Positions 26,287 through 45,128 of a DNA stretch of 64,000 nt are shown piece by piece. How positions within the stretch are numbered: position 1 is the stretch's first letter; the number at the start of each line of letters is the position of its first letter. The notes beneath the pieces are model-generated. The model was not told where the DNA came from and made no database searches. It was given only the letters and a program-made list of their open reading frames with translations. A program made the position numbers and the translations under genes. Origin of the DNA: Halomonas sp. ML-15 (GTDB lineage Bacteria > Pseudomonadota > Gammaproteobacteria > Pseudomonadales > Halomonadaceae); contig NZ_JACXZT010000001.1 of NCBI RefSeq assembly GCF_014779595.1, positions 248,001 to 312,000 on the forward strand, written 5' to 3'.

Positions 26287-27096
26287 ATGAAGCGAACCAC
26301 AAGATCGCTTTTAAATCATAGAGTTATTACTGAAGATCAGAAAAAGGATCCGCTTTTTCTGCAGTCCGTTTCCAGAGCGATGCAGGTCCTCTCGGCGTTT
26401 CATTCGGCTGACGGCGCCATGAGTCTCTCGGAGATAGCCAAAGAGGCGGGTATCGACAGAAGCGCCGCACAGCGAATCGTTCACACCTTGCGCGAGCTGG
26501 GCTACCTCAGGCGTGATAATGAAGACAACGGCTTTCTTCCTGACATCAGGGTGCTCGACCACACCCTCGACTACTTGAGCCTCAATCCCGTCATACGCAA
26601 TGCCACCCCCGTACTGCTAGAACTCAGGCGTAATATTCGCGAGCGGGTCGACCTCAGCCTCTTCGATGACACCCGTGTGGTTTACGCTGCGCGCATGCAA
26701 AGCAAGCGGGAAACCTTTTATGCCACACTGGTCGGCCATAGCGTGCCCACCTTCTGCAGTTCGGGGGGGCGAGCCATACTCTCGCGCCTGGAGGATGACG
26801 AGGTGCGCGATGTCATTGCGCGGTCCCAATTGATGCCAGTCACGCCACGCACGATTACCGACCCCGTCGCCATTCTCGAGAAGGTTCAGGAGGCCCGAGA
26901 GCAGGGGTATGCATTGGCGAGAGAAGAAATTCTGATCGGCGAGATCGCACTGGGCGTCGCCATCACCGACAAGCATGACCGCCCGTGCGGCGCCATACAT
27001 GTGGCAGGCTCGCTCAGTGAATGGACGCCCGAAGCATTTCGAGAGCGCGTCTTCCCTCTTGCTTCGGAAGCCGCCAGGGCCATATCGCGCTTTTAG
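26287..27096 (+). CDS. IclR-family transcriptional regulator
   Basis: 269-residue regulator. The winged helix-turn-helix spans about residues 25-85 (SLSEIAKEAGIDRSAAQRIVHTL), followed by the IclR ligand-binding domain with VDLSLFDDTRVVYAARM, SSGGRAILSRL and AREEILIGEIALGVAI. TAGGA lies just upstream of the ATG. It is divergent from the M81-ABC operon with 178 bases between the two starts, so it is the probable regulator of that operon and of itself. Effector unknown. Confidence 0.92.
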   Translation: MKRTTRSLLNHRVITEDQKKDPLFLQSVSRAMQVLSAFHSADGAMSLSEIAKEAGIDRSAAQRIVHTLRELGYLRRDNEDNGFLPDIRVLDHTLDYLSLNPVIRNATPVLLELRRNIRERVDLSLFDDTRVVYAARMQSKRETFYATLVGHSVPTFCSSGGRAILSRLEDDEVRDVIARSQLMPVTPRTITDPVAILEKVQEAREQGYALAREEILIGEIALGVAITDKHDRPCGAIHVAGSLSEWTPEAFRERVFPLASEAARAISRF

Positions 27097-28587: not shown

Positions 28588-28636
28588 ATGCTGGCTACCG
28601 CTACTTGGCCGCGTAACGCTCGGCGGTAGCCAGCAT
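28588..28636. terminator. Inverted repeat between convergent genes, possible bidirectional terminator
   Basis: ATGCTGGCTACCGC (28588-28601) and GCGGTAGCCAGCAT (28623-28636) are perfect 14-base inverted copies with a 21-base loop. The right arm lies inside the last codons of the lyase gene and the loop holds its stop. The position between convergent genes suggests termination in both directions, but no T run follows. Confidence 0.5.
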
Positions 28637-29467
28637 TTCCGGCAGGCCGATACTCTCGTTGAGCTCGTCGAAGGCTGCCATGCGGTCGCGGAACGGTTCG
28701 GTGGTGCCGTGGCGCTTGAGGCTCTCGAAGTACGCCGAGGCCTGGCGAATCACCGCGCGGGCAAGCCCTCCTGGGAAGATCACCAGCTTGAAGCCAAGGT
28801 CGGCCAGTTCGTCGGCGCTGCCCGCCGGGGTGCGTCCGCCTTCGACCATATTGGCGAGCAGCGGGACACGCTGCTGGAAGCGCTCGGTGATCATCAGCTG
28901 CTGCTGGCGGCTCTGCGGCGCCTCGATGAACAGCACATCGGCGCCCGCGTCGAGATAGCGTTCGGCGCGCTCCATGGCCGCCTCGATCCCCTCTACGCCA
29001 ATCGCATCGGTACGCGCGATGATCCGTGTCGTGTCGCTGCGGCGTGCGTCACAGGCGGCCTGAATCTTGCCCACCATTTCATCGGCGGTAATCAGCGTCT
29101 TGCCACTCAGGTGGCCACAGCGCTTGGGGAAAGTCTGGTCCTCGAGCTGGATCGCCGAGGCCCCGCTACGCTCGAACACCCGCACCGTGCGCTGCACGTT
29201 GAGCGCATTACCGTAGCCGGTATCAGCGTCGACGATCAGGGCGATATCGACACGGTCTCGAATCGCCGCGATGCTATCGGCCACCTCGGTCATGGTCACC
29301 AGGCCCAGGTCAGGACGGCCCAATTGGGTGTAGGCCAGGCTGGCGCCGGACAGGTAGACACACTCGAAGCCGGCCTGCGCCGCCAGGTTGGCCGTGAACG
29401 GGTCGTAGACCCCCGGTGCGACCAGGGCACCCTGGGTTTGCTGGATCAAGTCGGCGAGCGGAGTCAT
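28601..29467 (-). CDS. Isocitrate lyase/PEP mutase family C-C lyase (2,3-dimethylmalate or methylisocitrate lyase-like)
   Basis: 288-residue TIM-barrel enzyme. Asp80 and Asp82 in DADTGYGN bind magnesium, and FPKRCGH carries Cys117, the general acid found in C-C lyases (methylisocitrate, oxaloacetate and dimethylmalate lyases) and replaced in phosphonomutases. IEAPQS and LANMVEGGRTP are further active-site loops. It should split a substituted malate into pyruvate or a like keto acid plus a carboxylic acid. GAGGAAA precedes the ATG. It lies 22 bases after the GntR gene in the same operon and shares its control region with the TTT-LeuCD operon, so dimethylmalate- or citramalate-type substrates are attractive. 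Confidence 0.88.
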   Translation of the reverse strand: MTPLADLIQQTQGALVAPGVYDPFTANLAAQAGFECVYLSGASLAYTQLGRPDLGLVTMTEVADSIAAIRDRVDIALIVDADTGYGNALNVQRTVRVFERSGASAIQLEDQTFPKRCGHLSGKTLITADEMVGKIQAACDARRSDTTRIIARTDAIGVEGIEAAMERAERYLDAGADVLFIEAPQSRQQQLMITERFQQRVPLLANMVEGGRTPAGSADELADLGFKLVIFPGGLARAVIRQASAYFESLKRHGTTEPFRDRMAAFDELNESIGLPEMLATAERYAAK

Positions 29468-29489: not shown

Positions 29490-30275
29490 TCACGCGTCCC
29501 AGACGCGCTTGTTATTGTGGGTCTTGCGTCCCAACGACATCTGATGCTCGTAGGTGTCGGGGCAGTAGAACCCTTCGATGTACTCGACCGGGCGATCGTC
29601 CTCGTCGAACACGGTGCGGCGGATGCAAAGCAGTGCATCACCCGGCTCCATATCGAGGAGGCTGGCTTGACTGGGCGTGGCCAGCTTGGCGGTGATCGCC
29701 TGCTCGGCACGAGCCACCTTGGCACCGGCACGCTCCAGTAGCAGCAGCAGCGGCTGGGACGCCATGTCCTGCTCGCTGAAGGTGCGCCCTATCGCTTCCG
29801 GTACATAGGTGGTCAACAGCGAGAACGGCGCCCCGCGATGACTACGCACCCGGGTCGCCTTCTGGACGACACTCCCCGCGTCCACTGCGAGGGCTTGTGC
29901 CACTTCGGCAGAGGCTGCCACATAGCCAAAGTCGAGCACCTTGACCTCGGTCTTGAGGCCCATGGCGATCAGGTTTTCGATCACTCCAGAGATACTCGCC
30001 TGCACCGGCGACGACTCGTTGGACGCCACCGGGAAGGTGCCCTTGCCGCGGTAGCGGACGACCAGACCTTCGCGATCCAGACGCTCCATCGCCTTGCGAA
30101 TGGTGATCCGCGACACCTGAAACTGCTCGGTCAGCAGTATCTCGTTGGGCAGCGGCTGCTCGGGGGTATAGCGCCCCTCCAGAATCTCCTGGCGCAATAC
30201 GAGATAAACGCGATGGTGCTTCGGCCAGGGGTCACTGGCATCCCCACTGAGCTGGCGTTTCGAGAGGTCTGTCAC
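29490..30275 (-). CDS. GntR/HutC-family regulator of the TTT-LeuCD locus
   Basis: 261-residue repressor type. The winged helix-turn-helix (about residues 20-85) has PLPNEILLTEQFQVSRITI and the wing VVRYRGKGTFPV; the UTRA ligand domain follows (VVQKATRVRSHRGAPFSLLT). I use GTG 30275 as start because a perfect AGGAGG lies four bases before it; ATG 30332 would place the start inside the palindromic operator. The gene is divergent from the first TTT operon and is co-directional with the lyase. The operator ATGTC-N5-GACAT 56 bases upstream is its likely binding site and would give autoregulation. Confidence 0.9.
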   Translation of the reverse strand: MTDLSKRQLSGDASDPWPKHHRVYLVLRQEILEGRYTPEQPLPNEILLTEQFQVSRITIRKAMERLDREGLVVRYRGKGTFPVASNESSPVQASISGVIENLIAMGLKTEVKVLDFGYVAASAEVAQALAVDAGSVVQKATRVRSHRGAPFSLLTTYVPEAIGRTFSEQDMASQPLLLLLERAGAKVARAEQAITAKLATPSQASLLDMEPGDALLCIRRTVFDEDDRPVEYIEGFYCPDTYEHQMSLGRKTHNNKRVWDA

Positions 30276-30330
30276 TGCGCCTCCTGTAAACCTGAGTGTG
30301 CGAGCCACTGGCTCGCGTTTATCGGACTTC

Positions 30331-30345
30331 ATGTCCTATTGACAT
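30331..30345. promoter_or_regulatory. Operator 1 (ATGTCCTATTGACAT), overlapping a -35 box
   Basis: Inverted repeat ATGTC-N5-GACAT. The right arm contains TTGACA, a perfect sigma70 -35 hexamer for the plus-strand TTT operon; CATGAA 16 bases later may serve as -10. The identical 15 bases occur at 35666-35680 before the second TTT operon. Binding here would block the -35 box, so repression by the adjacent GntR protein is likely. Confidence 0.75.
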
Positions 30346-30512
30346 GACAAAATTACCATGCATGAATAACCCTTGCCAATGCATGATCCATCACAAAGGG
30401 CTCAGATACCCATAACGTATACCAAGGACCCTGCATTCGCAGGGCGCAGCGGCACCAGCGCCCACGCCACTGAGACCCTACGTCCAACAATAACGACTCC
30501 GGAGACGCCATC

Positions 30513-31532
30513 ATGAACCATCGACACACCCCCCTCACCGCCGCCGTCAAGCGCAGCCTGCCCACTCTCAGCGCCGGTATCTCTTGCCTGGTATTGAGCG
30601 TCGGCTTAGCCAGCGCCGCCCACGCCGACTGGCCGCAGGATCCCATCGAGATCGTGGTTCCCTTCGATGCCGGCGGCAGCGCGGACCGCATGGCCCGTGG
30701 CCTGGCCGAGCACATGTCACCACGCCTGGATGTACCGATCAGCATCGTCAACCGCCCCGGTGGTGCTGGCGCACTGGGTGCCACCTACTTTCAGCAGCAG
30801 GCCGCCGACGGCCAGACCCTGCTGGTGATGCAGGCCACCCCCTACCTCGCCAGCGCCATCGAAGTCGGCGGCGCACCGGTCGAGTGGGAGGACTTCCAAC
30901 TGCTCAGCGCCCAGTGGAACGACTACGGCATCGTTGCAGTACACAATGACAGCCCCTATCAGTCCCTCGAGGAGCTGATCGAGGCCATGCGCGAGGCCGG
31001 CCAAGTCAGCTCCGGGATCATCGTCGGCAACGGCGGTCACCTGCAGACCCTGGTGCTGATGGACGCGCTGGATATCGAGCATGACAACGTGCGCTTCGTC
31101 ACCTACAGCGGCGGCGCCCCGCTGCGCGCAGCACTGGCGGGCAACCAGGTCGACTTCGAGATCCTCGCCGCCGAAGCCGCGCTCTCGATCAGCGATGAAG
31201 TCCGCGCCCTGGCAGTGGTCAATGACGAGCCCAGCGACAACTGGGACGCGCCGCTGTTCAACGACGAAATGCAGAGCCTCGGCGTCGACCCGTTACCGCT
31301 GATAGGCGGCAATGTGACGGGCCTGATCGCCCACGCCTCGCTCCAGGAAGAGTATCCAGAGCGCTATGAGCGCCTGATCCAGGCCTACCAGGAAACCCTG
31401 GAGAGTGATGAATTCCAGGAGTGGGCAAGTGACGCAGGGATTGGCGCCGACTGGGTTTCGCCCGAGGAGAGCCAGGCGCTAGTGGATGAAGGCTATCGCG
31501 CCGTGCAGCAGTACGCCCCGCTACTCCAGTAA
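30513..31532 (+). CDS. TTT receptor (Bug/TctC family), system 1
   Basis: 339-residue periplasmic binding protein for a tripartite tricarboxylate transporter. A long signal peptide ends at AHA-DW. The family motif IVVPFDAGGSADRMARGLA and the RPGGAGALGATYF loop bind the carboxylate group of the ligand through water bridges. IIVGNGGHLQTLVLMDAL is the second ligand loop. GGAGA precedes the ATG. It is the first gene of the operon controlled by operator 1. Such receptors bind mono-, di- or tricarboxylates. Confidence 0.93.
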   Translation: MNHRHTPLTAAVKRSLPTLSAGISCLVLSVGLASAAHADWPQDPIEIVVPFDAGGSADRMARGLAEHMSPRLDVPISIVNRPGGAGALGATYFQQQAADGQTLLVMQATPYLASAIEVGGAPVEWEDFQLLSAQWNDYGIVAVHNDSPYQSLEELIEAMREAGQVSSGIIVGNGGHLQTLVLMDALDIEHDNVRFVTYSGGAPLRAALAGNQVDFEILAAEAALSISDEVRALAVVNDEPSDNWDAPLFNDEMQSLGVDPLPLIGGNVTGLIAHASLQEEYPERYERLIQAYQETLESDEFQEWASDAGIGADWVSPEESQALVDEGYRAVQQYAPLLQ

Positions 31533-31582
31533 ACGTGGCCCATCGTCCCAGTCACCTCGGATCGACAACGCGGGAGGCAAGC

Positions 31583-32053
31583 ATGACAACCTCGCCACGA
31601 CAGCACGGCTTTCCTGTCGGTAGCGTGCTGTTCTCACTGAGCCTCGCGGCCGTCTTCGGCTACTACGCCCACGGGGTCCATGCCGCCGCCCGCGGCGTCA
31701 CCGACTGGCTACTGATCGTGCCGGCCGCCGGTATCGGCATCACCGCGCTGCTGGTGATCGTCGGCACCAAGGTCATCGACTGGTACCGCCAGCGCCATGC
31801 CACCATCGCCGCCGAGGACGACCCCTCGGCGTTACCTGCGGTGCTGTTCATGGGCCTGCTGGCCATCTACGTGGCAGCGATACCGATCATCGGCTTCGAC
31901 CTCGGCAGCCTGCTGTTCCTGTGCCTGGCGCTTTACCTCCAGGGCGAGCGGCGCTGGTGGGTAATCGTCGGCTTCGGCGTGGTGGTCTCGGCCACCATCG
32001 TGCTGCTGTTCATCGAGCTGCTGGGCATTCGCCTGCCGACCCTGCTGCTGTGA
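31583..32053 (+). CDS. TTT small membrane subunit (TctB family), system 1
   Basis: 156-residue inner-membrane protein with four hydrophobic segments, the usual layout of TctB. I use ATG 31583 because GGGAGG lies six bases before it; the frame is open to 31535 without a ribosome site. It forms the permease with the TctA protein encoded 37 bases downstream. Confidence 0.88.
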   Translation: MTTSPRQHGFPVGSVLFSLSLAAVFGYYAHGVHAAARGVTDWLLIVPAAGIGITALLVIVGTKVIDWYRQRHATIAAEDDPSALPAVLFMGLLAIYVAAIPIIGFDLGSLLFLCLALYLQGERRWWVIVGFGVVVSATIVLLFIELLGIRLPTLLL

Positions 32054-32090
32054 GCGCCACTCTCCTAACCGACAAGAGGCATCCTGCGTC

Positions 32091-33617
32091 ATGATCAACG
32101 CCGAGGCCTTTCACGCCGCCCTCAGCCTGTTGGGTAACACCCCTGCGGCCTGGCTGGTGGTGCCGCCGGGGCTAATCATCGGCCTGTTCTTCGGCTCGAT
32201 CCCTGGCCTCTCGATCTCGATTGCCATGGCGGTGTTCCTGCCTGCCACGCTGTACATGGACTTCCTGCCGGCGATTCTGTTTCTCACCGCCATCTTTACC
32301 GGCGGCGGCTTCGGGGGCGCGATCCCCGCCATAATGCTCAACATTCCGGGCACCTCATCGTCGGTGGCCACCGCCTTCGACGGCTATCCCATGGCGCGCC
32401 GCGGCGAGCATGCCCAGGCGCTCGGCATCGGCCTGGTGGCCTCGGTACTCGGCACCCTGGTCGGCTATCTGCTGCTGCTGTTCACCGTGCAGTCGATCTC
32501 ACAGTGGGTACTGCGCCTGGGTCCCACCGAAATGCTGGTGGTGGCGATCTGGGGCGTCACCCTGATCGCCGTGCTCAACGATGCCAGCATCTCCAAGGGC
32601 ATCGCCGCCGGGATCCTGGGCATCCTGATCAGCACCATCGGCTACAGCGACGCCGGCCAGATGCGCGGCACCTTCGGCAGCATGTATCTGCTCGACGGCA
32701 TACCGGTGATTCCCGCGCTGATCGGGTTCTTCGCCGCCTCGGAGCTGTTCAACCTGGTCGGCAAGCGCTACATCGTCGATGACAGCGCCCTGCGGGTGGT
32801 GCGCTTTCGCCATATTCTCGACGGCATGGGCCAGGCCGCCAGCAAGCCGTTTCAGCTAATGCGTGGCGGCAGCATGGGCGCAGTGATCGGCGCCATTCCC
32901 GGGGTTGGCGCCAGTATCGCCAACCTCGCCGCCTACGCTACCGCCAAGCAACGCTCCAAGGACCCCGACTCGTTCGGCAAGGGCAACCCCTCGGGCCTGA
33001 TCGCCGCCGAGTCGGCCAACAGCAGCTCCGAAGGCGGGTCGATGATCACCCTTCTGGCCCTGGGATTACCTGGCGGTGCCGGCACCGCGGTGCTGCTCGG
33101 CGCCTTCGCCCTGCACAACGTCACCGGCGGGCCGCGCTTCATCCGCGAGAACACCGATATCGTCTATGCCCTGATCATCGGCAACATGGCCCAGGCAGTG
33201 CTGCTGCTGATAGTCGGGGTCGGGTTTATCTTCCTCGCCGGCTATATCGTCAAACTCTCGCTCAAGCTGATGATCCCCATCGTCATGGTGTTATCAGTGG
33301 TCGGCTCCTACGCCATCACCGGCAATATGGTCGGCCCCATCACCGTAGTGGCCACCGGCATCATCGGCTGGCTGATGCGTCGCTACGGCTTCCCCGTGGC
33401 CGCCACCGTGGTTGGCCTGCTGGTCGGCGGCATGGCCGAAGGCGAGCTGGTGCGCAGCATGCAGATCAGCGGCGGCAACCTAGGCTTCATCGCCGACCGG
33501 CCCATCACCCTTGCACTGCTGGCGTTGCTGCTGCTGTCGGTGCTGCCGCGGGTCATCGGCAGCATGCTCAAGCGTCGCCGCGCCACCCCTAGACACTCAC
33601 CGAGGACGCCGTCATGA
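32091..33617 (+). CDS. TTT large membrane subunit (TctA family), system 1
   Basis: 508-residue inner-membrane permease with about eleven or twelve hydrophobic segments. Typical TctA sequences are GLFFGSIPGLSISIAMAVFL near the start and IPGTSSSVATAFDGYPMARR, plus the second-half repeat AIPGVGASIANLAAYATAK and GLPGGAGTAVLLGA. It moves the carboxylate delivered by the receptor into the cell with an ion gradient. Its stop overlaps the start of the LeuC-like gene (ATGA), which ties transport to hydration of the substrate. Confidence 0.94.
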   Translation: MINAEAFHAALSLLGNTPAAWLVVPPGLIIGLFFGSIPGLSISIAMAVFLPATLYMDFLPAILFLTAIFTGGGFGGAIPAIMLNIPGTSSSVATAFDGYPMARRGEHAQALGIGLVASVLGTLVGYLLLLFTVQSISQWVLRLGPTEMLVVAIWGVTLIAVLNDASISKGIAAGILGILISTIGYSDAGQMRGTFGSMYLLDGIPVIPALIGFFAASELFNLVGKRYIVDDSALRVVRFRHILDGMGQAASKPFQLMRGGSMGAVIGAIPGVGASIANLAAYATAKQRSKDPDSFGKGNPSGLIAAESANSSSEGGSMITLLALGLPGGAGTAVLLGAFALHNVTGGPRFIRENTDIVYALIIGNMAQAVLLLIVGVGFIFLAGYIVKLSLKLMIPIVMVLSVVGSYAITGNMVGPITVVATGIIGWLMRRYGFPVAATVVGLLVGGMAEGELVRSMQISGGNLGFIADRPITLALLALLLLSVLPRVIGSMLKRRRATPRHSPRTPS

Positions 33618-35002
33618 CTCAGCCCTCCCTCACCCTGTTCGAGAAGATCTGGCAGCAGCACAGGATCGCCAGCGCAGGGGAGCTCGACCTGCTCTGGGTC
33701 GACCGCCACTTCGTCCACGAAGGCTCCTTCCACGCCTTCGACAAGCTCGACGGGAGCGGCCGACCGCTGGCCTATCCGGAGCTCACCTTCGGTATCGCCG
33801 ACCACTACGTGCCCTCCAATCTGGACCGCCTCGACGACGACCCCGAAGTGGCCGGGATGATTCGCCTCCTCGAAGACAACACCACCAAGCACCAGCTCAC
33901 CTATATGGGCCTCGGCCATGCCGATCGCGGCATCGTGCACGTTGCCGCCCCGGAGCTGGGCCTGACGCTACCCGGCTTGATCATCGTCTGCGGCGACTCG
34001 CATACCACCACCCACGGCGCCTTCGGCGCACTGGCCATGGGCATTGGGGCCACCGAAGTGGCCCATGTACTCGCCACCCAGACCCTGTGGCAGCGTCGCC
34101 CCAAGACCATGCGGATTCACATCGGCGGCCAGCTCGCCGACGGCGTCACCGCCAAGGACCTCGCCCTGCACATCATCCACCAGATCGGCACCGGCGGCGC
34201 TACCGGACATGCCGTGGAGTACACCGGCTCGGCGGTGGCTGCGCTGTCGATGGATGCCCGCATGACCCTGTGCAACATGACCATCGAGGCCGGTGCCCGG
34301 GTCGGCATGGTGGCACCGGACGAGACCACCCTCGCCTGGCTGCGTAATACACCCCAGGCGCCCAAGGGCGAGGCGCTCGAGCATGCCGAACGCCATTGGC
34401 TCAGTCTTTATAGCGACCCCGATGCCCACTACGACAAGTCGGTGACCATCGACGCCAACCAGGTCGCACCGCGCATCACCTGGGGCACCAGCCCCGAGCA
34501 GTCCGTGGCCGTCGATGAGCCCTTTGCCACCGTCGACAGCGAGGCCACCCGCAGTTCGCTGGAGTACATGGGCCTCAGCCCCGGCCGGCCCATTATCGGC
34601 CTGGAAGTCGACCAGGTGTTCATCGGCTCATGCACCAACTCACGGCTCAGTGACCTGCGCGATGCCGCCAGCGTTCTGGCCTCCGGCACGGTCAAGGTGC
34701 CAACGCTGATCGTCGCCGGCTCCAACCGTGTCAAGGCCCAGGCCGAAGACGAGGGTCTGGCGGATATCTTCCGTCAGGCCGGCGCCAGCTGGGGTGAAAG
34801 CGGCTGCTCGATGTGCGTGGCCATGAACGGCGACAGTGTCGCGCCGGGCCAGCGTTGCGCCTCCACCAGCAACCGCAACTTTCCAGGCCGCCAGGGCCCC
34901 GGTGCCCGGACACACCTGATGAGCCCGGCCATGGCCGCCGCCGCCGCGCTCAACGGCAAGATCGTCGACATCCGCCACCCTGATAAAGGAGCACCCGCAT
35001 GA
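33614..35002 (+). CDS. Aconitase-family hydratase/isomerase large subunit (LeuC-like)
   Basis: 462-residue iron-sulfur hydro-lyase subunit. The [4Fe-4S] cysteines are in GSCTNSRL and GCSMCVAM; VCGDSHTTTHGAFGALAMGI and RCASTSNRNFPGRQG are the family's signatures. It is close to LeuC in length and motifs, but leuA and leuB are absent and the gene overlaps the TctA gene by four bases, so a catabolic role is more likely than leucine synthesis. Relatives outside leucine synthesis include dimethylmaleate hydratase, maleate hydratase and citraconate/citramalate isomerase. It needs the small subunit encoded next, again with an ATGA overlap. Residues alone do not settle the substrate. Confidence 0.9.
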   Translation: MTQPSLTLFEKIWQQHRIASAGELDLLWVDRHFVHEGSFHAFDKLDGSGRPLAYPELTFGIADHYVPSNLDRLDDDPEVAGMIRLLEDNTTKHQLTYMGLGHADRGIVHVAAPELGLTLPGLIIVCGDSHTTTHGAFGALAMGIGATEVAHVLATQTLWQRRPKTMRIHIGGQLADGVTAKDLALHIIHQIGTGGATGHAVEYTGSAVAALSMDARMTLCNMTIEAGARVGMVAPDETTLAWLRNTPQAPKGEALEHAERHWLSLYSDPDAHYDKSVTIDANQVAPRITWGTSPEQSVAVDEPFATVDSEATRSSLEYMGLSPGRPIIGLEVDQVFIGSCTNSRLSDLRDAASVLASGTVKVPTLIVAGSNRVKAQAEDEGLADIFRQAGASWGESGCSMCVAMNGDSVAPGQRCASTSNRNFPGRQGPGARTHLMSPAMAAAAALNGKIVDIRHPDKGAPA

Positions 35003-35616
35003 CGCCCGTCACCCAGGTCGAAAGCCCCGCTCTGCTGCTGCTCGACGCCAATATCGACACCGATCAGATCATCCCTGCACGCTTTCTGCGCAAACCACGC
35101 AGCACTGGCTACCACCACTATCTGCTCTACGATGCCCGCTACGACATGCACGGCCAGCCGCGTAGCGACTCGCCGATTCCCGAGGCAGAGAGCGGCGCCA
35201 AGATCGTCCTCGCCGGCCACAACATCGGCTGCGGCTCTTCCCGGGAAGGCGCCGTCTACGCCTTCGTCGACTACGGCATCCAGGTCATCATCTCGACCAA
35301 GATCGCCGACATCTTTCGCAGCAACGCCATCCGCAACGGCCTGCTGCCGATCATGCTCGATCAGGCCCCCTTCGATGCGCTGGTCAGCCACTGCCGAGTC
35401 CAGCCGCAGGCGTCGCTGACCGTGGATCTCGTCGCCTGCGAGATACGCTGGGGAAATGACAACTGCCTGACCTTCGAGATCGACGACGGCAGCCGTGAGC
35501 GCCTGCTCAAAGGCATTGATGACATCCAGGCCACCCTGGCCTGGGAAACGCAGATCAACGCCTTCGCTGATAGTTACCTAAGCCAAAGACCGTGGGTGAT
35601 TCCCGCTCACAGATAG
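34999..35616 (+). CDS. Aconitase-family hydratase small subunit (LeuD-like)
   Basis: 205-residue swivel-domain partner of the LeuC-like protein. The conserved loop GHNIGCGSSREGAVYAFVDY holds the serine-arginine residues that hold the substrate's carboxylate. N-terminal LLLLDANIDTDQIIPARFL is a LeuD signature. In LeuD the loop that chooses the substrate's side chain lies in the first third; here it reads RFLRKPRSTGYHHYLLYDARYD, which may be compared with known dimethylmaleate or maleate hydratases. It is the last gene of the first TTT operon; operator 2 follows 49 bases later. Confidence 0.9.
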   Translation: MTPVTQVESPALLLLDANIDTDQIIPARFLRKPRSTGYHHYLLYDARYDMHGQPRSDSPIPEAESGAKIVLAGHNIGCGSSREGAVYAFVDYGIQVIISTKIADIFRSNAIRNGLLPIMLDQAPFDALVSHCRVQPQASLTVDLVACEIRWGNDNCLTFEIDDGSRERLLKGIDDIQATLAWETQINAFADSYLSQRPWVIPAHR

Positions 35617-35665
35617 CCACCGCAGCAGGGCCATCGAATGCGTCTGTCATACCTCTCGAAACGTC

Positions 35666-35680
35666 ATGTCCTATTGACAT
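35666..35680. promoter_or_regulatory. Operator 2, identical to operator 1
   Basis: The 15 bases ATGTCCTATTGACAT are repeated exactly, and similarity extends beyond (TC before; ACAA, AT, AC, AT, CAT and AA at matching positions after). TTGACA again lies in the right arm, and CATAAA follows 16 bases later as a possible -10. It lies 108 bases before the second TTT receptor gene. One regulator should therefore control both TTT operons. Confidence 0.75.
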
Positions 35681-35787
35681 TACAATATCACTATACATAA
35701 AGTGATATGAACCACGGCGACGGCTCATCCAATAACACTGCCTACATCCGCCAACGGCTTAACTACACCAATAAGATGGAGTCTCAC

Positions 35788-36771
35788 ATGCGCTTGACTA
35801 CCCCCCGCCCCCTGCTCGTGCTCGCCGCAGCTGCCCCCTTCGGCCTGCTACTTGGCGCCCAGGCAATTGCCGACGACTACCCCAGCGAACCGATCAATCT
35901 GATCGTTGGCGCTTCCGCCGGTGGCACCACCGATGCCTTGGCGCGTGAGGTCGCCGATGGCCTGGCACAGAAGTACGACGTACCCACAGTGGTCGACAAT
36001 CGCCCGGGGGCCGGTGCCAACATCGCCGCCGAGGCCGTCGCCAACAGCGACCCGGATGGCTACACCCTGCTGGTGGCCTATACCAGCCACACCCTCAATG
36101 AGTCGCTGTTTCACGAGCTGCCTTACGATCCGGTCGAGGATTTCTCGCCGATCTCACTGCTGGGCGAAGTCTCCAGCATTCTACTGTCGCGCCCCGACCT
36201 GGAGATCGACAGCCTGCAAGACCTGCTCGACTATGCCGCAGAGCAGCCCGACGGCATCACCTTCGGGGTCGGCGGCCTGGGCTCCTCGCTGCATATGGAG
36301 ACCCTCAAGTTCATGCAGGAATCCGAGATACTCGGCTACGAAATCCCCTACAACGGCACTGCCCCGGCCATCGCCGACCTGATCGGCAGCCACGTCGACG
36401 TGATGTTCGCGCCCTTCGCCGCCGCCATGCCGCTGGTCGAATCGGGTGACGCCAATGCCATTGCCGTCACCTCTCCGGAGCGCATGCCCAACCTCGACGA
36501 CATCCCCACCGTCAACGAGACCCTCGCCGACTACCCCACCACCTACGGCTGGTTCGGTCTGCTCGGCCCCGCCGGCATGGATCCGGGCATCGTCGAGCGG
36601 CTCAACGCCGACGTCACCGAGATCATGCAAGGCGAGTCCGGCGCCGACCTGCTCGAGCGCGAAGGTGCCGAACCTATCGACATCAGCCCCGAGGCGTTTG
36701 CCGACTTCATCGCACAAGACGTCGAGCGCTGGCAGGCCATCGCCGAAGCGGGCGGCATCGAGAAGCAGTAA
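35788..36771 (+). CDS. TTT receptor (Bug/TctC family), system 2
   Basis: 327-residue periplasmic binding protein with a signal peptide ending near AIA-DD. INLIVGASAGGTTDALAREVA and NRPGAGANIAAEAVANSDPDGYTLL are the usual ligand loops. ATG 35788 has GGAG six bases upstream; the longer frame from 35707 would hide the signal. Sequence is only loosely similar to the system 1 receptor, so the two systems probably take related but different acids. Controlled by operator 2. Confidence 0.93.
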   Translation: MRLTTPRPLLVLAAAAPFGLLLGAQAIADDYPSEPINLIVGASAGGTTDALAREVADGLAQKYDVPTVVDNRPGAGANIAAEAVANSDPDGYTLLVAYTSHTLNESLFHELPYDPVEDFSPISLLGEVSSILLSRPDLEIDSLQDLLDYAAEQPDGITFGVGGLGSSLHMETLKFMQESEILGYEIPYNGTAPAIADLIGSHVDVMFAPFAAAMPLVESGDANAIAVTSPERMPNLDDIPTVNETLADYPTTYGWFGLLGPAGMDPGIVERLNADVTEIMQGESGADLLEREGAEPIDISPEAFADFIAQDVERWQAIAEAGGIEKQ

Positions 36772-36789
36772 TCAGGGCATAACGTCATC

Positions 36790-37245
36790 ATGGCCACACG
36801 TAACCTGACACTGAAGGTCAATCACGAGCTGTTTGGCGGGCTGCTGCTCATTGGCATAGGCGCCTATGCCTATTACCACGGCCAGCAGTACGCCTTCGGC
36901 AGCCTGGCGAGAATGGGGCCGGGCTTCCTGCCCCAGGTACTGTCAATGGTGCTGTGTGGCATAGGCGGCCTGCTCGCCGTCACCTCCCAGCTGAAACCCA
37001 GCAGTACCGTCCAGTTGCAGTGGGGACAGCTGCTGATCGTGGCCGCCAGCATGGCGCTATTTGCGCTACTGCTGAGGCCCGCCGGCCTGTTCACGGCGGC
37101 CTTCGTGGGCGTGGTGATCTCCTCCTGGGCCGACCGCGAGATCACCTGGCCGGGGCGCATCGCACTGGCACTGGTGGTCGCCGCGCTCGCGTCACTGATC
37201 TTCATCGTCGGGCTCGGCATGAACATGCCGCTGTGGTGGGGCTAA
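36790..37245 (+). CDS. TTT small membrane subunit (TctB family), system 2
   Basis: 151-residue inner-membrane protein with four hydrophobic segments. GLLLIGIGAYAYYHGQQYAF at the start and FGSLARMGPGFLPQVLS are typical of the TctB family. It starts 18 bases after the receptor stop and ends 19 before the TctA start, so the three genes form one unit. Confidence 0.88.
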   Translation: MATRNLTLKVNHELFGGLLLIGIGAYAYYHGQQYAFGSLARMGPGFLPQVLSMVLCGIGGLLAVTSQLKPSSTVQLQWGQLLIVAASMALFALLLRPAGLFTAAFVGVVISSWADREITWPGRIALALVVAALASLIFIVGLGMNMPLWWG

Positions 37246-37264
37246 TCGCCTTGGAGACTTTCTG

Positions 37265-38782
37265 GTGGATGTAATCGCAAACCTGGGAATCGGCCTGCAA
37301 GCGGCACTGACCCCGACCATGCTGTGGTACTGCTTCGTCGGTGTGCTGCTAGGCACCTTCATCGGGGTACTGCCGGGGATTGGTCCCCTGGCGGCCATCT
37401 CGCTGCTGCTGCCGATTACCTACTACATCGGGCCCGACGTCGCCATCGTGATGCTCGCCGGCGTCTATTATGGCGCCCAGTATGGCGGCTCTACCGCCGC
37501 CATCCTGCTGCGCCTGCCAGGCACCGCCTCTTCCGCGGTGGCCTGCATCGACGGCAACCCGATGGCGCGTAATGGGCGAGCCGGGGTAGCGCTATTCATT
37601 ACCACCATCGCCTCGTTTGCCGGCGCCATCACCGGCCTTGTCATCCTGATCTTCTTCTCGCCCTATATCGCCAAGCTGGGGCTCAAGTTCGGCTCGGCGG
37701 AATATTTCGCGCTCATGCTGCTGGGGCTGGTAGCCGCCTGTACCTTCTCCGACTCACCGCTCAAGGGTGGCGCGATGGTGGTGCTGGGGCTGCTACTGAG
37801 CATGATCGGCACCGACGTCAACACCGGCGTGATCCGCTACACCTTCGGTTTCTCCGAACTGTCCAGCGGCCTGAGCCTGGTCGCCCTGGCAATGGGTATC
37901 TTCGGCGTCGCCGATATCATTCGTAATATCAATACCATCGACACCTCCGGGCTGAGTGAGCGGTTCACCATGCGCTCGATGCTGCCGAGCCGAGAGGACT
38001 GGCGGCTATCGCTGCCCTCCATGGCCCGCGGCTCGGCCATCGGCAGCTTCTTCGGCACCCTGCCCGGCACCGGCGCCTCTATCTCATCGTTCATGGCCTA
38101 CGCCACCGAGAAGAAGATCGCCAAGCAGCCTGAACGCTTCGGCAACGGCGCCATCGAAGGCGTCGCCGCTCCTGAAGCGGCCAACAACGCCTCGGCGCAA
38201 ACCGCCTTCGTGCCCACGCTGACCCTCGGCATTCCCGGGGACATCACCATGGCGCTGATCCTGGGCGCCCTGATCATCCACGGCATCACCCCCGGCCCGC
38301 AGCTGATCACCACGGAGCCGGAACTGTTCTGGGGGCTGATCATCAGCTTCATTATCGGCAATATCCTGCTGGTACTGTTCAACATTCCGATGATCGGCGT
38401 GTGGATCAGCCTGCTCAAGATCCCCTACCGACTGCTCTATCCCACCATCCTGATATTTATCAGCGTGGGGGTCTTCAGCGTCAGCAACAGCACCTTCGAC
38501 ATCTACACCGTGGTCGGCATCGGTGTGCTCGGCTACCTATTGACCATGCTGCGCTTCGACCCCGCGCCGCTGCTATTGGGCTTCATCCTCGGCCCGCTGA
38601 TGGAGGAGCACTTCCGGCGCGCCATGCTGCTATCGCGCGGCAACCTGGAAACCTTCATCGAGCGGCCGATCAGCCTCACCATTCTGATCATCACCGGATT
38701 GGCGGTGTGCTTCATCATCGCCAGCAGCGTGCGTCGTCGGCTGCAAGCCTACAAGACAGACAAGGAGTCCCATGTCACCTGA
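37265..38782 (+). CDS. TTT large membrane subunit (TctA family), system 2
   Basis: 505-residue inner-membrane permease with about twelve membrane segments. GTFIGVLPGIGPLAAISLLL, YGAQYGGSTAAILLRLPGTA and the mirrored TLPGTGASISSFMAYATEK are family signatures. The start is GTG 37265, with GGAG about nine bases upstream; no ATG fits as well. Its end overlaps the cysteine-hydrolase gene by eleven bases, so uptake and hydrolysis are translated together. Confidence 0.93.
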   Translation: MDVIANLGIGLQAALTPTMLWYCFVGVLLGTFIGVLPGIGPLAAISLLLPITYYIGPDVAIVMLAGVYYGAQYGGSTAAILLRLPGTASSAVACIDGNPMARNGRAGVALFITTIASFAGAITGLVILIFFSPYIAKLGLKFGSAEYFALMLLGLVAACTFSDSPLKGGAMVVLGLLLSMIGTDVNTGVIRYTFGFSELSSGLSLVALAMGIFGVADIIRNINTIDTSGLSERFTMRSMLPSREDWRLSLPSMARGSAIGSFFGTLPGTGASISSFMAYATEKKIAKQPERFGNGAIEGVAAPEAANNASAQTAFVPTLTLGIPGDITMALILGALIIHGITPGPQLITTEPELFWGLIISFIIGNILLVLFNIPMIGVWISLLKIPYRLLYPTILIFISVGVFSVSNSTFDIYTVVGIGVLGYLLTMLRFDPAPLLLGFILGPLMEEHFRRAMLLSRGNLETFIERPISLTILIITGLAVCFIIASSVRRRLQAYKTDKESHVT

Positions 38783-39383
38783 GTCACTCGATCCGCGCCA
38801 CACCGCCCTGATCATCGTCGACCTGCAGAATGACTTCCTGCATCCCGACGGGGCCTATGCCCGCGGCGGCGCCACCAATCCCGAGGCCGTTGCCCTGCCC
38901 GAGCGCATCGCGCCGCTGGCCAAGCGCCTCAAGCAGGCCGGCGGCCTGGTGGCCACCACCCGCTTCACGCTATGGCCGGATGCACAGGGCGAACCGATGA
39001 TCTCGCCACACCTGAAAGCGCTGCGGCCGTTTCTGTCCCGCGGCGACTTTGCCCCCGGCAGCCACGGTCAGGCCAACGTCGAGGCCATTGCCCCCCATGT
39101 CGATATCGCCGTCGACAAGGTCGCCTATTCCGGCTTCTTCAACACTCAGCTCGACTGGGCTCTCAGGAAGGCCGGCATCAGCAGCGTGATCGTTTGCGGC
39201 ATCGTCACCAATGGCGGTGTGGCCAGTACCGTGCGCGACGCCCATATGCGCGACTACCACATCCTGGTGCTGGATGACGGCTGCGCGGCGTTCAAACGCA
39301 GCACCCACGACACCGCCATCGCCGACATGGCCAGTATCGCCACCGTTACTGACTGCGCATCGGTTGTCGCGCAGATCGGGTGA
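38772..39383 (+). CDS. Isochorismatase-family cysteine hydrolase (maleamate amidohydrolase-like?)
   Basis: 203-residue cytosolic amidohydrolase. The catalytic triad is Asp17 in VDLQNDFLHP, Lys116 in VDKVAYSGF and Cys142 in CGIVTNGGV, so it is likely active. The family includes nicotinamidase, N-carbamoylsarcosine amidase, ureidoacrylate hydrolase and maleamate amidohydrolase (NicF). Beside two carboxylate transporters and a LeuCD-type hydratase, release of ammonia from a half-amide of a dicarboxylate, as NicF does, is an attractive role, but this is inference from context. It overlaps the TctA gene by eleven bases. Confidence 0.88.
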   Translation: MSPESLDPRHTALIIVDLQNDFLHPDGAYARGGATNPEAVALPERIAPLAKRLKQAGGLVATTRFTLWPDAQGEPMISPHLKALRPFLSRGDFAPGSHGQANVEAIAPHVDIAVDKVAYSGFFNTQLDWALRKAGISSVIVCGIVTNGGVASTVRDAHMRDYHILVLDDGCAAFKRSTHDTAIADMASIATVTDCASVVAQIG

Positions 39384-39392
39384 GAGGCAAAC

Positions 39393-40268
39393 ATGCGGCT
39401 CGAATTTCTGATCACCGTCATGACCATCGTCGACAAAGGCAGCTTTGCCGTTGCGGCCAAGGCAGTGAACATCACTCCCAGTGCGGTCAGTATGCAGGTC
39501 AAAGCGGTAGAGCAGTATTTCGAGAAGGCGCTGTTCAATCGCACTGGCCAGTCAGTGACGCCGACGCCGTTCGCCCATGACCTCTGTCAACGTGTCGGAC
39601 CGCTACTAGATGAACTCGAGCAGATGCGCAGTGGCCGTCAGGCCGCGGTGACAGGCAGACTCAAGCTGGGCGCTATCAGCATCATGCAGCCTGTCATCTT
39701 GCCCCCTCTGTTCAAACGTCTGAAGCAGGACGCTCCCAAGCTCGACATTAGTTGCGTGCCCGGTCGTTCACACGAACTGATTGAAGCGGTCAAGGTCGGC
39801 GACCTGGATGCCGCCATCGTTGCAGAACCTGCCACAGCCAGCCGTCGACAACTCGACTGGCAGTTACTGCAACAAGCTCCTTTTTGCGTGATCACACCTA
39901 ACGGCATAGCACCTGAAAGAAATAAGGATATGCTGACAGAACAACCTTGGATAGCTTACGACCGAACGACATCGCTCGGAAAGTTGTCGCGCCAACTCTC
40001 GATGTCGATCTTTGGAGGAAAACCGCCAGAACTTGAACTTCAGTCCCTCGAAGGTGTGATTTCCATGGTGTCATCTGGCTATGGATCTGCCGTTGTGATT
40101 CTCCCTGACCCGCGCCTAGCCAAGTATTACGAAATAGATACGCTGCCACTTGGCGATGATGCGCCTAGCCTACGTTTTTCACTTGTCAGCAGAAAAATAG
40201 AATGCCGAGACAAGCCACTGGTTATATTGAAGAACATAATAAATAACTGGAACACAGCGACCGACTAA
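39393..40268 (+). CDS. LysR-type transcriptional regulator
   Basis: 291-residue regulator with an N-terminal helix-turn-helix (GSFAVAAKAVNITPSAVSMQ, residues about 15-35) and a periplasmic-binding-like effector domain. It starts nine bases after the hydrolase, with GAGAGG before the ATG, so it is the last gene of the second TTT operon, which is unusual for a LysR gene (most are divergent from their target). It may activate this operon or the lyase-TRAP operon downstream. Codons 165-290 are more AT-rich than the surrounding genes, as is the gap that follows. Confidence 0.9.
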   Translation: MRLEFLITVMTIVDKGSFAVAAKAVNITPSAVSMQVKAVEQYFEKALFNRTGQSVTPTPFAHDLCQRVGPLLDELEQMRSGRQAAVTGRLKLGAISIMQPVILPPLFKRLKQDAPKLDISCVPGRSHELIEAVKVGDLDAAIVAEPATASRRQLDWQLLQQAPFCVITPNGIAPERNKDMLTEQPWIAYDRTTSLGKLSRQLSMSIFGGKPPELELQSLEGVISMVSSGYGSAVVILPDPRLAKYYEIDTLPLGDDAPSLRFSLVSRKIECRDKPLVILKNIINNWNTATD

Positions 40269-40314
40269 CGTCATTTCACATCAAAAATCTTCACTATCGA
40301 ATAAAGAAATATTC

Positions 40315-40342
40315 ACTAGCATAACGCCACCCGTTTGCTAGT
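40315..40342 (+). terminator. Hairpin after LysR gene, probable terminator
   Basis: ACTAGCATAACG and CGTTTGCTAGT pair over 11 bases with one bulged T and a five-base CCACC loop, followed by TTATAACAG. It ends the second TTT operon. The rest of the 264-base gap up to 40533 is AT-rich and presumably holds the promoter of the next operon, but I cannot point to clear -35 and -10 boxes. Confidence 0.55.
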
Positions 40343-40532
40343 TTATAACAGTAGATATAGACATTAAATCAACGACGCAAAGCCAAGTATAAAAAAGCAT
40401 ATAAATACAAATAGCCCTGAAAAAAGACGCCATGCAACCCACAGCATCACTCAAGCCGCTCATCGAGCGTCGCCTCATGTCGCCTCGCCAGTGGACCGAC
40501 AACTACTCAAGCAGCACTGCCAGGAGAAGCTC

Positions 40533-41447
40533 ATGAACACCACCGTTACACGTCGGCCAGGCTACCCATTGGGCCTTGCTCAAGCGCAAGGACGCAGCGC
40601 CAGGCTAAGAGAGTTGATCGACCGTGATGAAATAACCATGGCCCCTGGGTGCTTCGACTGCCTGACCGCACGGCTCGTCGCCGATGCCGGCTTTCCCGCT
40701 GCCTACATCACCGGCTCGGGGGTCTCGATGAGCGCTTTGGGCGCGCCCGATATCGGCGTGATCTCCTTTGCAGAAGTTGCCGAACGAGCGCGACGCATCG
40801 CCGACGTCGTCGACATCCCCATTATCTGCGATGTGGATACCGGTTATGGCGGCCCTCTCAATGTCGTTCGTACCGTTCGTGAACTCGAGCGTGCTGGCGT
40901 CAGCGCAATGCAGATAGAAGATCAGGCATGGCCCAAGAAGTGTGGGCACGAACTCGGACGCAAGCTGGTCGATATCACCGAAATGGAGGGCCGCATCAAG
41001 GCCGCGGTCGATGCTCGTGACGATGACGATGTCATGATCATCGCCAGAACCGATGCGCGCACCGGACACGGCCTCGCCGAAGCGCTTGATCGCGCCATGG
41101 CCTACCGCGAGGCCGGCGCCGACCTGATCTTCGTCGAGTCACCCGAAAGCCAAGAGGAGATGCAGAAGATCAACCAGCGTCTGTCATGTCCCACCCTCGC
41201 CAACATGGTGGAAGGCGGTCGCACGCCGTTTCTCGATGCCGAGACACTTGCCGCACTTGGATACCGTCTTGCTATCTATCCCAATTCGTTGACAAGGCTG
41301 TTCGGTTTCCAAGGCGCCAAGCTGCTTGAGAGTCTCGCCAAACATGGCAGCACCGAACCCTTGCGCGACCAGATGCTCGATCATCACGGGCTGTGGTCGC
41401 TGTTCGATTACCCCGAGTGGACGTCGCTGGAAGCTCGCTTCACCTAG
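40533..41447 (+). CDS. Isocitrate lyase/PEP mutase family C-C lyase, second copy
   Basis: 304-residue TIM-barrel lyase related to the one at 28.6 kb. The DVDTGYGGPL magnesium site, WPKKCGHELG with the catalytic cysteine, IARTDARTG and LANMVEGGRTP are all present, so C-C lyase activity is expected. KKCGH is the form seen in methylisocitrate lyase. ATG 40533 has AGGAG about seven bases upstream and is preferred to 40491. It heads an operon with a TAXI-TRAP transporter and a cysteine hydrolase. It differs clearly from the first copy in its C-terminal region, so a different substrate is likely. Confidence 0.88.
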   Translation: MNTTVTRRPGYPLGLAQAQGRSARLRELIDRDEITMAPGCFDCLTARLVADAGFPAAYITGSGVSMSALGAPDIGVISFAEVAERARRIADVVDIPIICDVDTGYGGPLNVVRTVRELERAGVSAMQIEDQAWPKKCGHELGRKLVDITEMEGRIKAAVDARDDDDVMIIARTDARTGHGLAEALDRAMAYREAGADLIFVESPESQEEMQKINQRLSCPTLANMVEGGRTPFLDAETLAALGYRLAIYPNSLTRLFGFQGAKLLESLAKHGSTEPLRDQMLDHHGLWSLFDYPEWTSLEARFT

Positions 41448-41524
41448 CCAAGCCATCGGGACTTACACAATAACAAAACCATTTCCCCATCGCGTCATTG
41501 CGATAACAACAAGAGGTAAATCAT

Positions 41525-42532
41525 ATGCGACACTCAAAAACCAATGTACTGCACCACACTCCCCTCGCCGCTGGAATTGGCGCGGCGCTAATGCTCTCCT
41601 TGCCGTTTAACGCCCAGGCGCAGTCACAACTCTCGGTGGGCACCACCAGCCAGGCATCATCGCTATATGCCTACTTCGTTGCCGTGTCCCAGTTGCTCAA
41701 TTCTGAACTCGACGACATTAATCACTCAGTGCTTGAAACCGGCGGCGGCCTCGACAACTCAAGGCGACTAAGTGAAGGACAGGTCGACTGGGCGATGATG
41801 GCAGAACCAGACCTGTTCGAATATTACAAGGGCCTAGGTCCCTTCGAAGGTGATCCCAACCCCAACTTCCGGACATTCTGGGTCACCACACCGTTAGCCT
41901 ATCTGACCGTGGTCGATGCTGACTCGGATGTGACGTCCTACTCGGACCTTGACGGCGAACAGTTCAACGGCGGCGGACGCGGCTCTGGCACCGAACGCGC
42001 TACCTTCGAGGCTATGGAGGCCCTCGGCGTCGAACCCGACTGGTTCCGCACGGGCATGAGCGACGCCGTGACCGCCTTTCAGGATCGCCGCATCGTTGGC
42101 TTTACCAAGGCAGGGCCGCCCAACTCGCCCGACAGTGCCATCATGGATGCCGAGACCACCCGAGATATTCGAGTCCTGAGCTGGACGGATGATGAGATTG
42201 AACAGGTTCAGGCGGAATACCCGCACTTCGATTTCATGGCCGTTGACGATACCCCCTACGACACCGGCCCGATGAACCTGCGAGTGGTTTTCATCACCAT
42301 CGGTACCACCACGGATCTGCCCGAGGATACCGCCTACGACATCTTCAAGACCGTGGTGGAAAACGTCGACACGGTCGCCGAATCCTACTCGGCCATCGAA
42401 GGGATGGACATCATCGAGCAGACCTTGGAACGGGGCCAGACACCGCTCCATGCCGGCGTAGCGCGTTACATCCTGGAGCAAGGTTACGACATTCCTGATC
42501 ACCTGATGCCAGACGAGCTTGAGGAGGGTTGA
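41525..42532 (+). CDS. TAXI-family TRAP solute-binding protein, second system
   Basis: 335-residue periplasmic receptor. The signal peptide ends near AQA-QS, and the mature start QLSVGTTSQASSLYAYFVAV fits TAXI receptors. LETGGGLDNSRRLSEGQVDW is the conserved ligand region. Unlike the TAXI receptor at 12.5 kb it has a Sec-type and not a twin-arginine signal. The stop is followed at once by the permease gene, without the hairpin seen in the other TRAP systems. Confidence 0.9.
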   Translation: MRHSKTNVLHHTPLAAGIGAALMLSLPFNAQAQSQLSVGTTSQASSLYAYFVAVSQLLNSELDDINHSVLETGGGLDNSRRLSEGQVDWAMMAEPDLFEYYKGLGPFEGDPNPNFRTFWVTTPLAYLTVVDADSDVTSYSDLDGEQFNGGGRGSGTERATFEAMEALGVEPDWFRTGMSDAVTAFQDRRIVGFTKAGPPNSPDSAIMDAETTRDIRVLSWTDDEIEQVQAEYPHFDFMAVDDTPYDTGPMNLRVVFITIGTTTDLPEDTAYDIFKTVVENVDTVAESYSAIEGMDIIEQTLERGQTPLHAGVARYILEQGYDIPDHLMPDELEEG

Positions 42533-42534
42533 CC

Positions 42535-44475: not shown

Positions 44476-45128
44476 TCACTCTATATGGAAAGACCGTCAG
44501 GCAAACACTGGAAGAGATTCTGGTTCCCGAATCGACAGCACTTGTCGTCATCGACATACAGAACGACTTTTTCGACGACGATGGCGTGTTCGCTCAAGCC
44601 GGCAGAGATATGAGTCTCGCTCAGAAACACTTGCCCAACATGCGAAGTCTCATCGCCGAGTGGCAAGCAATGGATCTATTCACGATCTTCGTGCGCCAAG
44701 TCACACTTCCCGATGGTCGCGGTGATAGCCCAGCATGGCTGCGACTCAAGGTCCGTGATGGCAAGAGTCCCAACTACACCCTGAAGGGTTCCTGGGGAGC
44801 CCAGTTCTGTGCTGGCATCGAACCTAGAGCACAGGATCCGGTCATTGAAAAACTGCGGCCGGATGCCTTTCTTGGCACAAGCCTCGACATGATGTTAAAG
44901 GCCAACGGCATCGATACGACGGTACTGATTGGCGCCAACACCGAAGGCTGTGTCGAGTCCACCGTACGCAGCAGTGCCCATCACGACTTCTATACCATAA
45001 TCGCCGAAGACGCCGTGGCCAGCAGCAATGCACAGTTCCACGACGCCTCTCTTGCCTTAATGAAAAACCGCTTCTTGGTGGAACCTTCGTCGCGCATTAT
45101 CGACACCCTGGTTACCAACCAAAGGTAA
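44472..45128 (+). CDS. Isochorismatase-family cysteine hydrolase, second copy
   Basis: 218-residue amidohydrolase with triad Asp28 (VIDIQNDFF), Lys127 (IEKLRPDAFLGT) and Cys160 (NTEGCVESTV). The longer N-terminal arm and the TEGCVEST motif place it in the biuret/ureidoacrylate/carbamoyl-amidase part of the family rather than with nicotinamidase. It is coupled by ATGA overlap to the TRAP permease, so it probably works on the imported compound. A terminator-like hairpin follows. Confidence 0.88.
   Translation: MITLYGKTVRQTLEEILVPESTALVVIDIQNDFFDDDGVFAQAGRDMSLAQKHLPNMRSLIAEWQAMDLFTIFVRQVTLPDGRGDSPAWLRLKVRDGKSPNYTLKGSWGAQFCAGIEPRAQDPVIEKLRPDAFLGTSLDMMLKANGIDTTVLIGANTEGCVESTVRSSAHHDFYTIIAEDAVASSNAQFHDASLALMKNRFLVEPSSRIIDTLVTNQR

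Follow-up and report, generated by a model that had tools for sequence, protein, structure and literature searches.

What controls the genes that lie around a 15-bp sequence standing twice, letter for letter, in front of two transporter operons? The question is raised by a 64,000-nt stretch of Halomonas sp. ML-15 (the whole of it is called the window here; the genome is 4.80 Mb), in which ATGTCCTATTGACAT precedes two operons for tripartite tricarboxylate transporters (TTT). The repeated element very probably serves as operator for the adjacent regulator, a GntR protein of HutC/UTRA type, and would define a regulon of lyase, TTT and LeuCD-like genes. A first-pass annotation had proposed a GntR protein with an operator shared by both TTT operons, and this is strongly supported by the conservation of the site and its co-occurrence with the regulator. 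It had placed the two identical copies correctly, and copy 1 does sit between the divergent genes gntR and tctC1. Judged from sequence, the locus appears to be an ordinary local GntR regulon, whose operator departs from the usual form of its subfamily and probably from a short palindrome as well. The sites are as follows.

30331..30345, forward strand: copy 1 of ATGTCCTATTGACAT, between gntR and tctC1; kept in 12 of 12 GntR-ortholog genomes with 0-2 mismatches
35666..35680, forward strand: copy 2 of ATGTCCTATTGACAT, upstream of tctC2; kept before tctC2 in all five genomes that have both GntR and TctC2
30332..30357, forward strand: proposed full operator 1, 26 bp in two inverted half-sites (conserved columns, symmetry axis)
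35667..35692, forward strand: proposed full operator 2, 26 bp (conserved columns, copy comparison, symmetry axis)
30339..30344, forward strand: TTGACA, possible -35 box of the tctC1 promoter (from the sequence; full sigma-70 match absent in the scan)
35674..35703, forward strand: sigma-70-like promoter TTGACA-18-TAAAGT, overlapping operator 2 (sigma-70 scan)

Besides these two copies, the window holds no match to the 15-mer at up to three mismatches. Shuffled windows with three mismatches allowed gave at least two matches in 19 of 100 cases, which is weak support from the window alone, and the case therefore rests on comparison between genomes. Across the ML-15 genome the 15-mer has two exact places, none at one mismatch, one at two and 16 at three, giving 19 places versus 15 for the reversed control, so that nothing beyond the two exact copies is conspicuous. 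The spaced motif ATGTC-N5-GACAT occurs at four places versus none for its control. Genome-wide, the motif was not found to be common away from promoters, and the proposed regulon was not refuted on that ground. No additional site of a wider regulon was seen within one mismatch in the genome, and further promoters were not indicated at 18 other places (two of ATGTC-N5-GACAT, 16 with three mismatches) by a check of stop-free frames rather than annotation, the longest frame over each running from 69 to 705 aa. The partial match reported to the right of the 15-mer is real, as 15 of 22 bases agree there between the window's two copies. The 60 bases to the left agree at 18 positions and the 58 beyond the right part at 15; the conserved island spans about 37 bp, in surroundings that look unrelated between copies.

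The comparison within the family covered 275 genomes, in which the 15-mer was sought within one mismatch. It was found at 27 places in 22 genomes, the reversed motif giving eight. All 13 exact copies, from nine genomes, adjoin gntR or tctC2. The 14 places with one mismatch include one at the locus (G050), and for the other 13 none of 18 window proteins found a match within 1.5 kb. A search with the GntR protein (E <= 1e-40) matched 50 of the 275 genomes; orthologs of 68-100% identity occur in 12, the window's included, and the next matches drop to 42%. The site adjoins gntR in all 12 ortholog genomes (G089, one of them, is only 85% complete), being exact in nine and carrying two mismatches in the gntR-proximal copy of G050, G202 and G215. 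The 250 bp upstream of gntR contain the motif with at most two mismatches in 11 of the 11 other ortholog genomes, while 500 shuffled motifs in the same regions matched on average 0.006 of the 11 loci and at most three. TctC1 is present in 12 genomes, 11 of which have GntR and the site, G004 having neither; TctC2 is present in six, five of which have GntR and the site before tctC2, the sixth being G246. In G050, which lacks TTT-1, gntR faces tctC2 directly, with one site copy near each gene. The site is intact at two loci whose gntR frame is broken in the assembly, L037 (G003) and L132 (Halomonas socia CKY01).

Beyond the family, an order-wide GntR search matched seven of 293 genomes, six of them at 38-41% identity and the seventh being the window's own. 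When GTDB genomes were scanned with the GntR protein, 76 loci emerged: eight from Halomonadaceae, seven alphaproteobacterial (L135-L140, L170; 49-66% identity), 32 betaproteobacterial (L141-L169, L188, L193, L199; 42-45%) and a remainder of 29 with lower identity or a short match, which includes 20 alphaproteobacterial loci. In six of the seven alphaproteobacterial loci the gntR-lyase unit faces tctC1, and the site occupies the space between gntR and tctC1. Both tctCBA and leuCD are seen in five of these six loci; the remaining one is truncated by its contig end. In all 32 betaproteobacterial loci TTGTTC[CT]ATTGAC lies shortly upstream of gntR. In L150, the only one read in detail, genes for a Liv-type ABC transporter and an aconitase-family protein come after gntR, and the other betaproteobacterial loci, except L159 and L160, show a LeuC match of 34-38% at similar distance. 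In a midpoint-rooted tree of 63 GntR proteins, which carries no support values, the site-bearing alpha- and gammaproteobacterial proteins stand together, the betaproteobacterial proteins group with Halomonas paralogs, and the Rhizobium and Paracoccus proteins, which have no recognised site, fall outside.

The form of the operator was read from 40 aligned sites, 17 from gamma-, six from alpha- and 17 from betaproteobacteria (the last from 14 of the 32 loci), which collapse at 85% identity to 26 (13, five and eight). Columns T2 G3 T4, T9 T10 G11 A12 C13 and A17 C18 A19 are invariant throughout the 26 sites, and T7 (24), A8 (25), A22 (23), A25 (23) and C26 (22) nearly so. Symmetry was compared with 1000 column shuffles, each scored at its best axis; kinship among the aligned sequences makes all these figures rough. 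Axis 14.5 scores best when 13 pairs are counted: 0.58 of them are symmetrical, a score reached by two of 1000 shuffles over the 26 sites and by 26, nine and 12 within the gamma, alpha and beta groups. The centre of this dyad lies 6.5 bp to the right of the centre of ATGTC-N5-GACAT. The conserved symmetry is thus probably a 26-bp dyad of inverted half-sites, TGTYNTATTGAC-N2-NACAWTANNACN, rather than a 15-bp palindrome, and we propose that the 15-mer is the left half-site plus the centre of this operator. Extra inverted half-site-like copies (ATGTCCTATTGSC or TTGTTCTATCGG) were seen about 10-25 bp from the main site in four loci, just upstream of the gntR-divergent site in L146 and L148 and upstream of the gntR-proximal site in L150 and L162; this suggests clustered half-sites in Burkholderiales.

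The alternative that survives best, though we consider it unlikely, is that exactly the short palindrome ATGTC-N5-GACAT serves one GntR dimer and that the conserved bases to its right are merely promoter. The inverted repeat described in the first-pass annotation holds in part of the material: at axis 8.0, with seven pairs, symmetry is 0.67 in the gamma and 0.69 in the alpha group, equal per pair to the long dyad there, and the ACA box at 17-19 would fit the extra boxes noted in the available portion of a survey of GntR motifs (PMC4494728). In the beta group, however, the symmetry is lost (0.32). Over all sites axis 8.0 gives 0.57, with 259 of 1000 shuffles as good, versus the two for the 13-pair dyad; the same seven pairs at axis 14.5 give 0.63, with 61 shuffles as good. 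Moreover, A17 C18 A19 are invariant despite lying outside the 15-mer.

The 26-bp dyad may be set beside known systems. HutC-type operators mostly read GT-N4-AC in the available portion of PMC4494728, the exceptions being FarR with direct repeats TGTATTAWTT, NagQ with direct repeats TGGTATT, and SdhR with TCTTATGTCTTATATAAGACATAAGA; extra boxes are placed there 7-12 nt from palindrome centres. The locus resembles the subfamily in its regulator, which has a GntR-type winged helix-turn-helix and a UTRA domain, and in the divergent arrangement with the operator between both genes, which that portion also surveys. The usual GT-N4-AC is not seen, GT and AC standing 7 apart in the 15-mer and 20 apart in the proposed dyad. 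The half-site TGTYNTATTG resembles the FarR repeat, a resemblance only, and both depart from GT-N4-AC. Yet the repeats of FarR and NagQ are direct in that portion, whereas the half-sites here are inverted and two bases apart, and the SdhR sequence is not the same palindrome as this site. A published description of this operator was not found in the open-licence literature, with subscription papers and RegPrecise outside that scope, and the exact motif strings in either sense led there only to papers unrelated by title (cattle, juniper, human limbal cells). A different relative is the alginate locus of Vibrio sp. C42, where the part of PMC13390454 available describes a TTT transporter with GntR-family genes and gntR knockouts but mentions no operator; that locus, however, concerns alginate oligosaccharides and alginate lyases.

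Closer at hand, Halomonadaceae have GntR paralogs (L107-L110; about 40% identity), which also lie beside LeuCD-like and lyase genes. They differ in having, by eye, TGTATTA/TAATACA-type repeats upstream of gntR and leuC, and a TTT match is absent within their 18-kb loci. These paralogs with their repeats form a second predicted regulon.

Taken across the groups, the comparison leads us to a tentative proposal, which we hold at slightly less than even confidence: a clade of HutC-type repressors in gamma-, alpha- and betaproteobacteria may read inverted 12-bp half-sites two bases apart (GT-N20-AC) over the -35 box, an architecture that the literature covered here does not describe for the subfamily, and control LeuCD-like catabolism with interchangeable uptake, either TTT plus lyase or Liv-type ABC. 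An uncharacterised repressor clade is now assigned a probable operator and regulon. The two TTT transporters, the LeuCD-like hydratase and the lyase probably belong to a single pathway, so that fewer substrates need be considered, and how UTRA-type GntR proteins recognise operators departing from GT-N4-AC can be tested cleanly at this locus.

Several observations weigh against assigning the site to GntR in this way. G246 keeps a fair site before TTT-2 (L222, about 9981) without a GntR ortholog, its sole GntR match at E <= 1e-40 being of the paralog type of about 40% identity. This site, ATGTTTTATTGACAA, has three mismatches to the 15-mer and fits the wider consensus TGTYNTATTGAC; decay after loss of GntR was considered and dropped, since the site still fits that consensus. 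Control by the paralog is not favoured, as the four paralog loci show another motif, and G246 is the one observation that a GntR operator leaves unexplained. L170, with a broken gntR of 49% identity, has no site. In the betaproteobacterial loci the site faces gntR itself, and these loci count for less because their pattern was drawn up after some of them had been seen and because they are closely related. A scan of 26 of the 29 lower-identity loci found none with fewer than two mismatches, and the remaining three held nothing within two mismatches of the 15-mer. A simple sigma-70 scan gave no full promoter at copy 1. The short palindrome, finally, is per pair as symmetrical as the long dyad in the gamma and alpha groups.

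The promoter elements bear on a second alternative, which is improbable: that the element is merely a conserved strong promoter, a -35 box with an extended region, and no regulator site. The motif does contain TTGACA, at operator positions 9-14, and copy 2 has a sigma-70-like match; the perfect -35 box claimed for the right arm is indeed present in the right part of both copies, although only copy 2 passes the promoter scan, which copy 1 fails. TGTY, the left half (positions 2-5), precedes the -35 box, with T2 G3 T4 invariant, and exact copies are confined to this locus among the 275 genomes.

Slightly less probable still is ownership of the site by the LysR-family protein encoded at 39393-40268. 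LysR-type sites show T-N11-A spacing. TGTC-N5-GACA formally has this spacing, and the LysR gene possibly belongs to the TTT-2 operon, but of the 12 genomes that carry both the site and GntR its ortholog (E <= 1e-60) is present in four and missing in eight, one of which is the 85% complete G089, and the site adjoins gntR in all 12. Ownership by LysR is largely refuted, and LysR is not the conserved partner of the site. An IclR-family protein (26287-27096) was rejected as regulator, its ortholog at E <= 1e-60 occurring in one of 14 genomes, the window's own (one of the 12 with site and GntR, and none of the 13 others checked). Chance recent local duplication, with copy identity but no function, is suggested by exact identity inside one genome and is refuted in this form, since G001, G031 and G089 also hold both copies, like the window with 15 of 15 motif bases agreeing and flanks at chance level (G050's copies agree at 12 of 15, and at 7 of 22 to the right); old duplication followed by selection is possible.

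With GntR preferred as the owner of the site, a mechanism can be outlined around the following genes.

29490..30275, reverse strand: gntR, HutC/UTRA-type regulator (PF00392, PF07702; the open reading frame list has 29490-30332)
28601..29467, reverse strand: lyase of the phosphoenolpyruvate mutase/isocitrate lyase family, methylisocitrate-lyase-like (profile matches)
30513..33617, forward strand: TTT-1, with tctC1 30513-31532, tctB1 31535-32053 and tctA1 32091-33617 (open reading frames, domains)
33614..35616, forward strand: LeuC-like 33614-35002 and LeuD-like 34999-35616 (TIGR00170 and TIGR00171 above cut-off)
35788..38782, forward strand: TTT-2, with tctC2 (start taken as 35788), tctB2 36790-37245 and tctA2 37265-38782 (open reading frames, domains)
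38772..39383, forward strand: isochorismatase-like cysteine hydrolase (PF00857; overlaps tctA2)
39393..40268, forward strand: LysR-family gene (10-bp gap to the preceding gene; ortholog in 4 of the 12 site- and GntR-bearing genomes)

GntR would act as a repressor. Its best solved-structure matches include YvoA/NagR and DasR, and repression with effector release would be expected from the family of these proteins. Copy 1 would serve the divergent gntR-lyase and tctC1B1A1-leuCD units and copy 2 tctC2B2A2. Each operator would cover a TTGACA reading into transporter genes, and since TTGACA lies inside the operator, bound GntR would block the -35 box and keep out RNA polymerase. An effector, probably a hydroxy-dicarboxylic acid imported by the TTT transporters, would bind to the UTRA domain, release GntR and open both promoters together, thereby inducing them jointly; copy 1 would also give autoregulation of gntR-lyase. 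The pathway would run through uptake, hydration or isomerisation, and cleavage of the hydroxy-dicarboxylic acid.

The proteins fit such a pathway in general terms. The listed gntR frame (ATG 30332) would begin within the motif; the likely start is GTG 30275, preceded by AGGAGG, because a stop in the N-terminal stretch of the G001 ortholog vanishes with the shorter query. The protein has the GntR-type winged helix-turn-helix (PF00392, 6.7e-19) and the C-terminal UTRA domain (PF07702, 4.2e-34) that place it in the HutC subfamily, and it falls below every curated NCBIfam cut-off tested for named members (HutC, PhnF, TreR and LSA1692 type), the best being 118.1 versus 275 (LSA1692), with 113.5 versus 220 for HutC. 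The lyase scores 295.6, below the cut-off of 354.4 for methylisocitrate lyase prpB (TIGR02317), and matches carboxyvinyl-carboxyphosphonate phosphorylmutase and methylisocitrate lyases and, more weakly, 2,3-dimethylmalate lyase. The LeuCD-like pair exceeds the isopropylmalate dehydratase cut-offs (TIGR00170, 565.1 versus 560.25; TIGR00171, 149.4 versus 116.25), and the gene context suggests a substrate other than isopropylmalate; a second LeuC homolog of 51% identity lies elsewhere in the genome, and matches of LeuC-like include homoaconitase and isopropylmalate/citramalate isomerase. TctC1 and TctC2 both match TTT-binding proteins. The extent of the regulon, as first drawn, is supported for gntR, lyase, TTT-1, LeuCD and TTT-2, while the cysteine hydrolase and LysR are candidate members by tight gene spacing; the hydrolase is probably cotranscribed with TTT-2, and LysR possibly ends that operon.

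Further along, positions 39393-45128 of the window hold a block of LysR, a second lyase (lyase2), a TRAP-like transporter and a second cysteine hydrolase. An extra lyase gene follows LysR in G031, G077 and G246, and the window and G050 are without it. The block is also found at L098, L100, L101 and L222; it accompanies TTT-2 in G031, G050 and G246 and stands directly after TTT-1 in G077.

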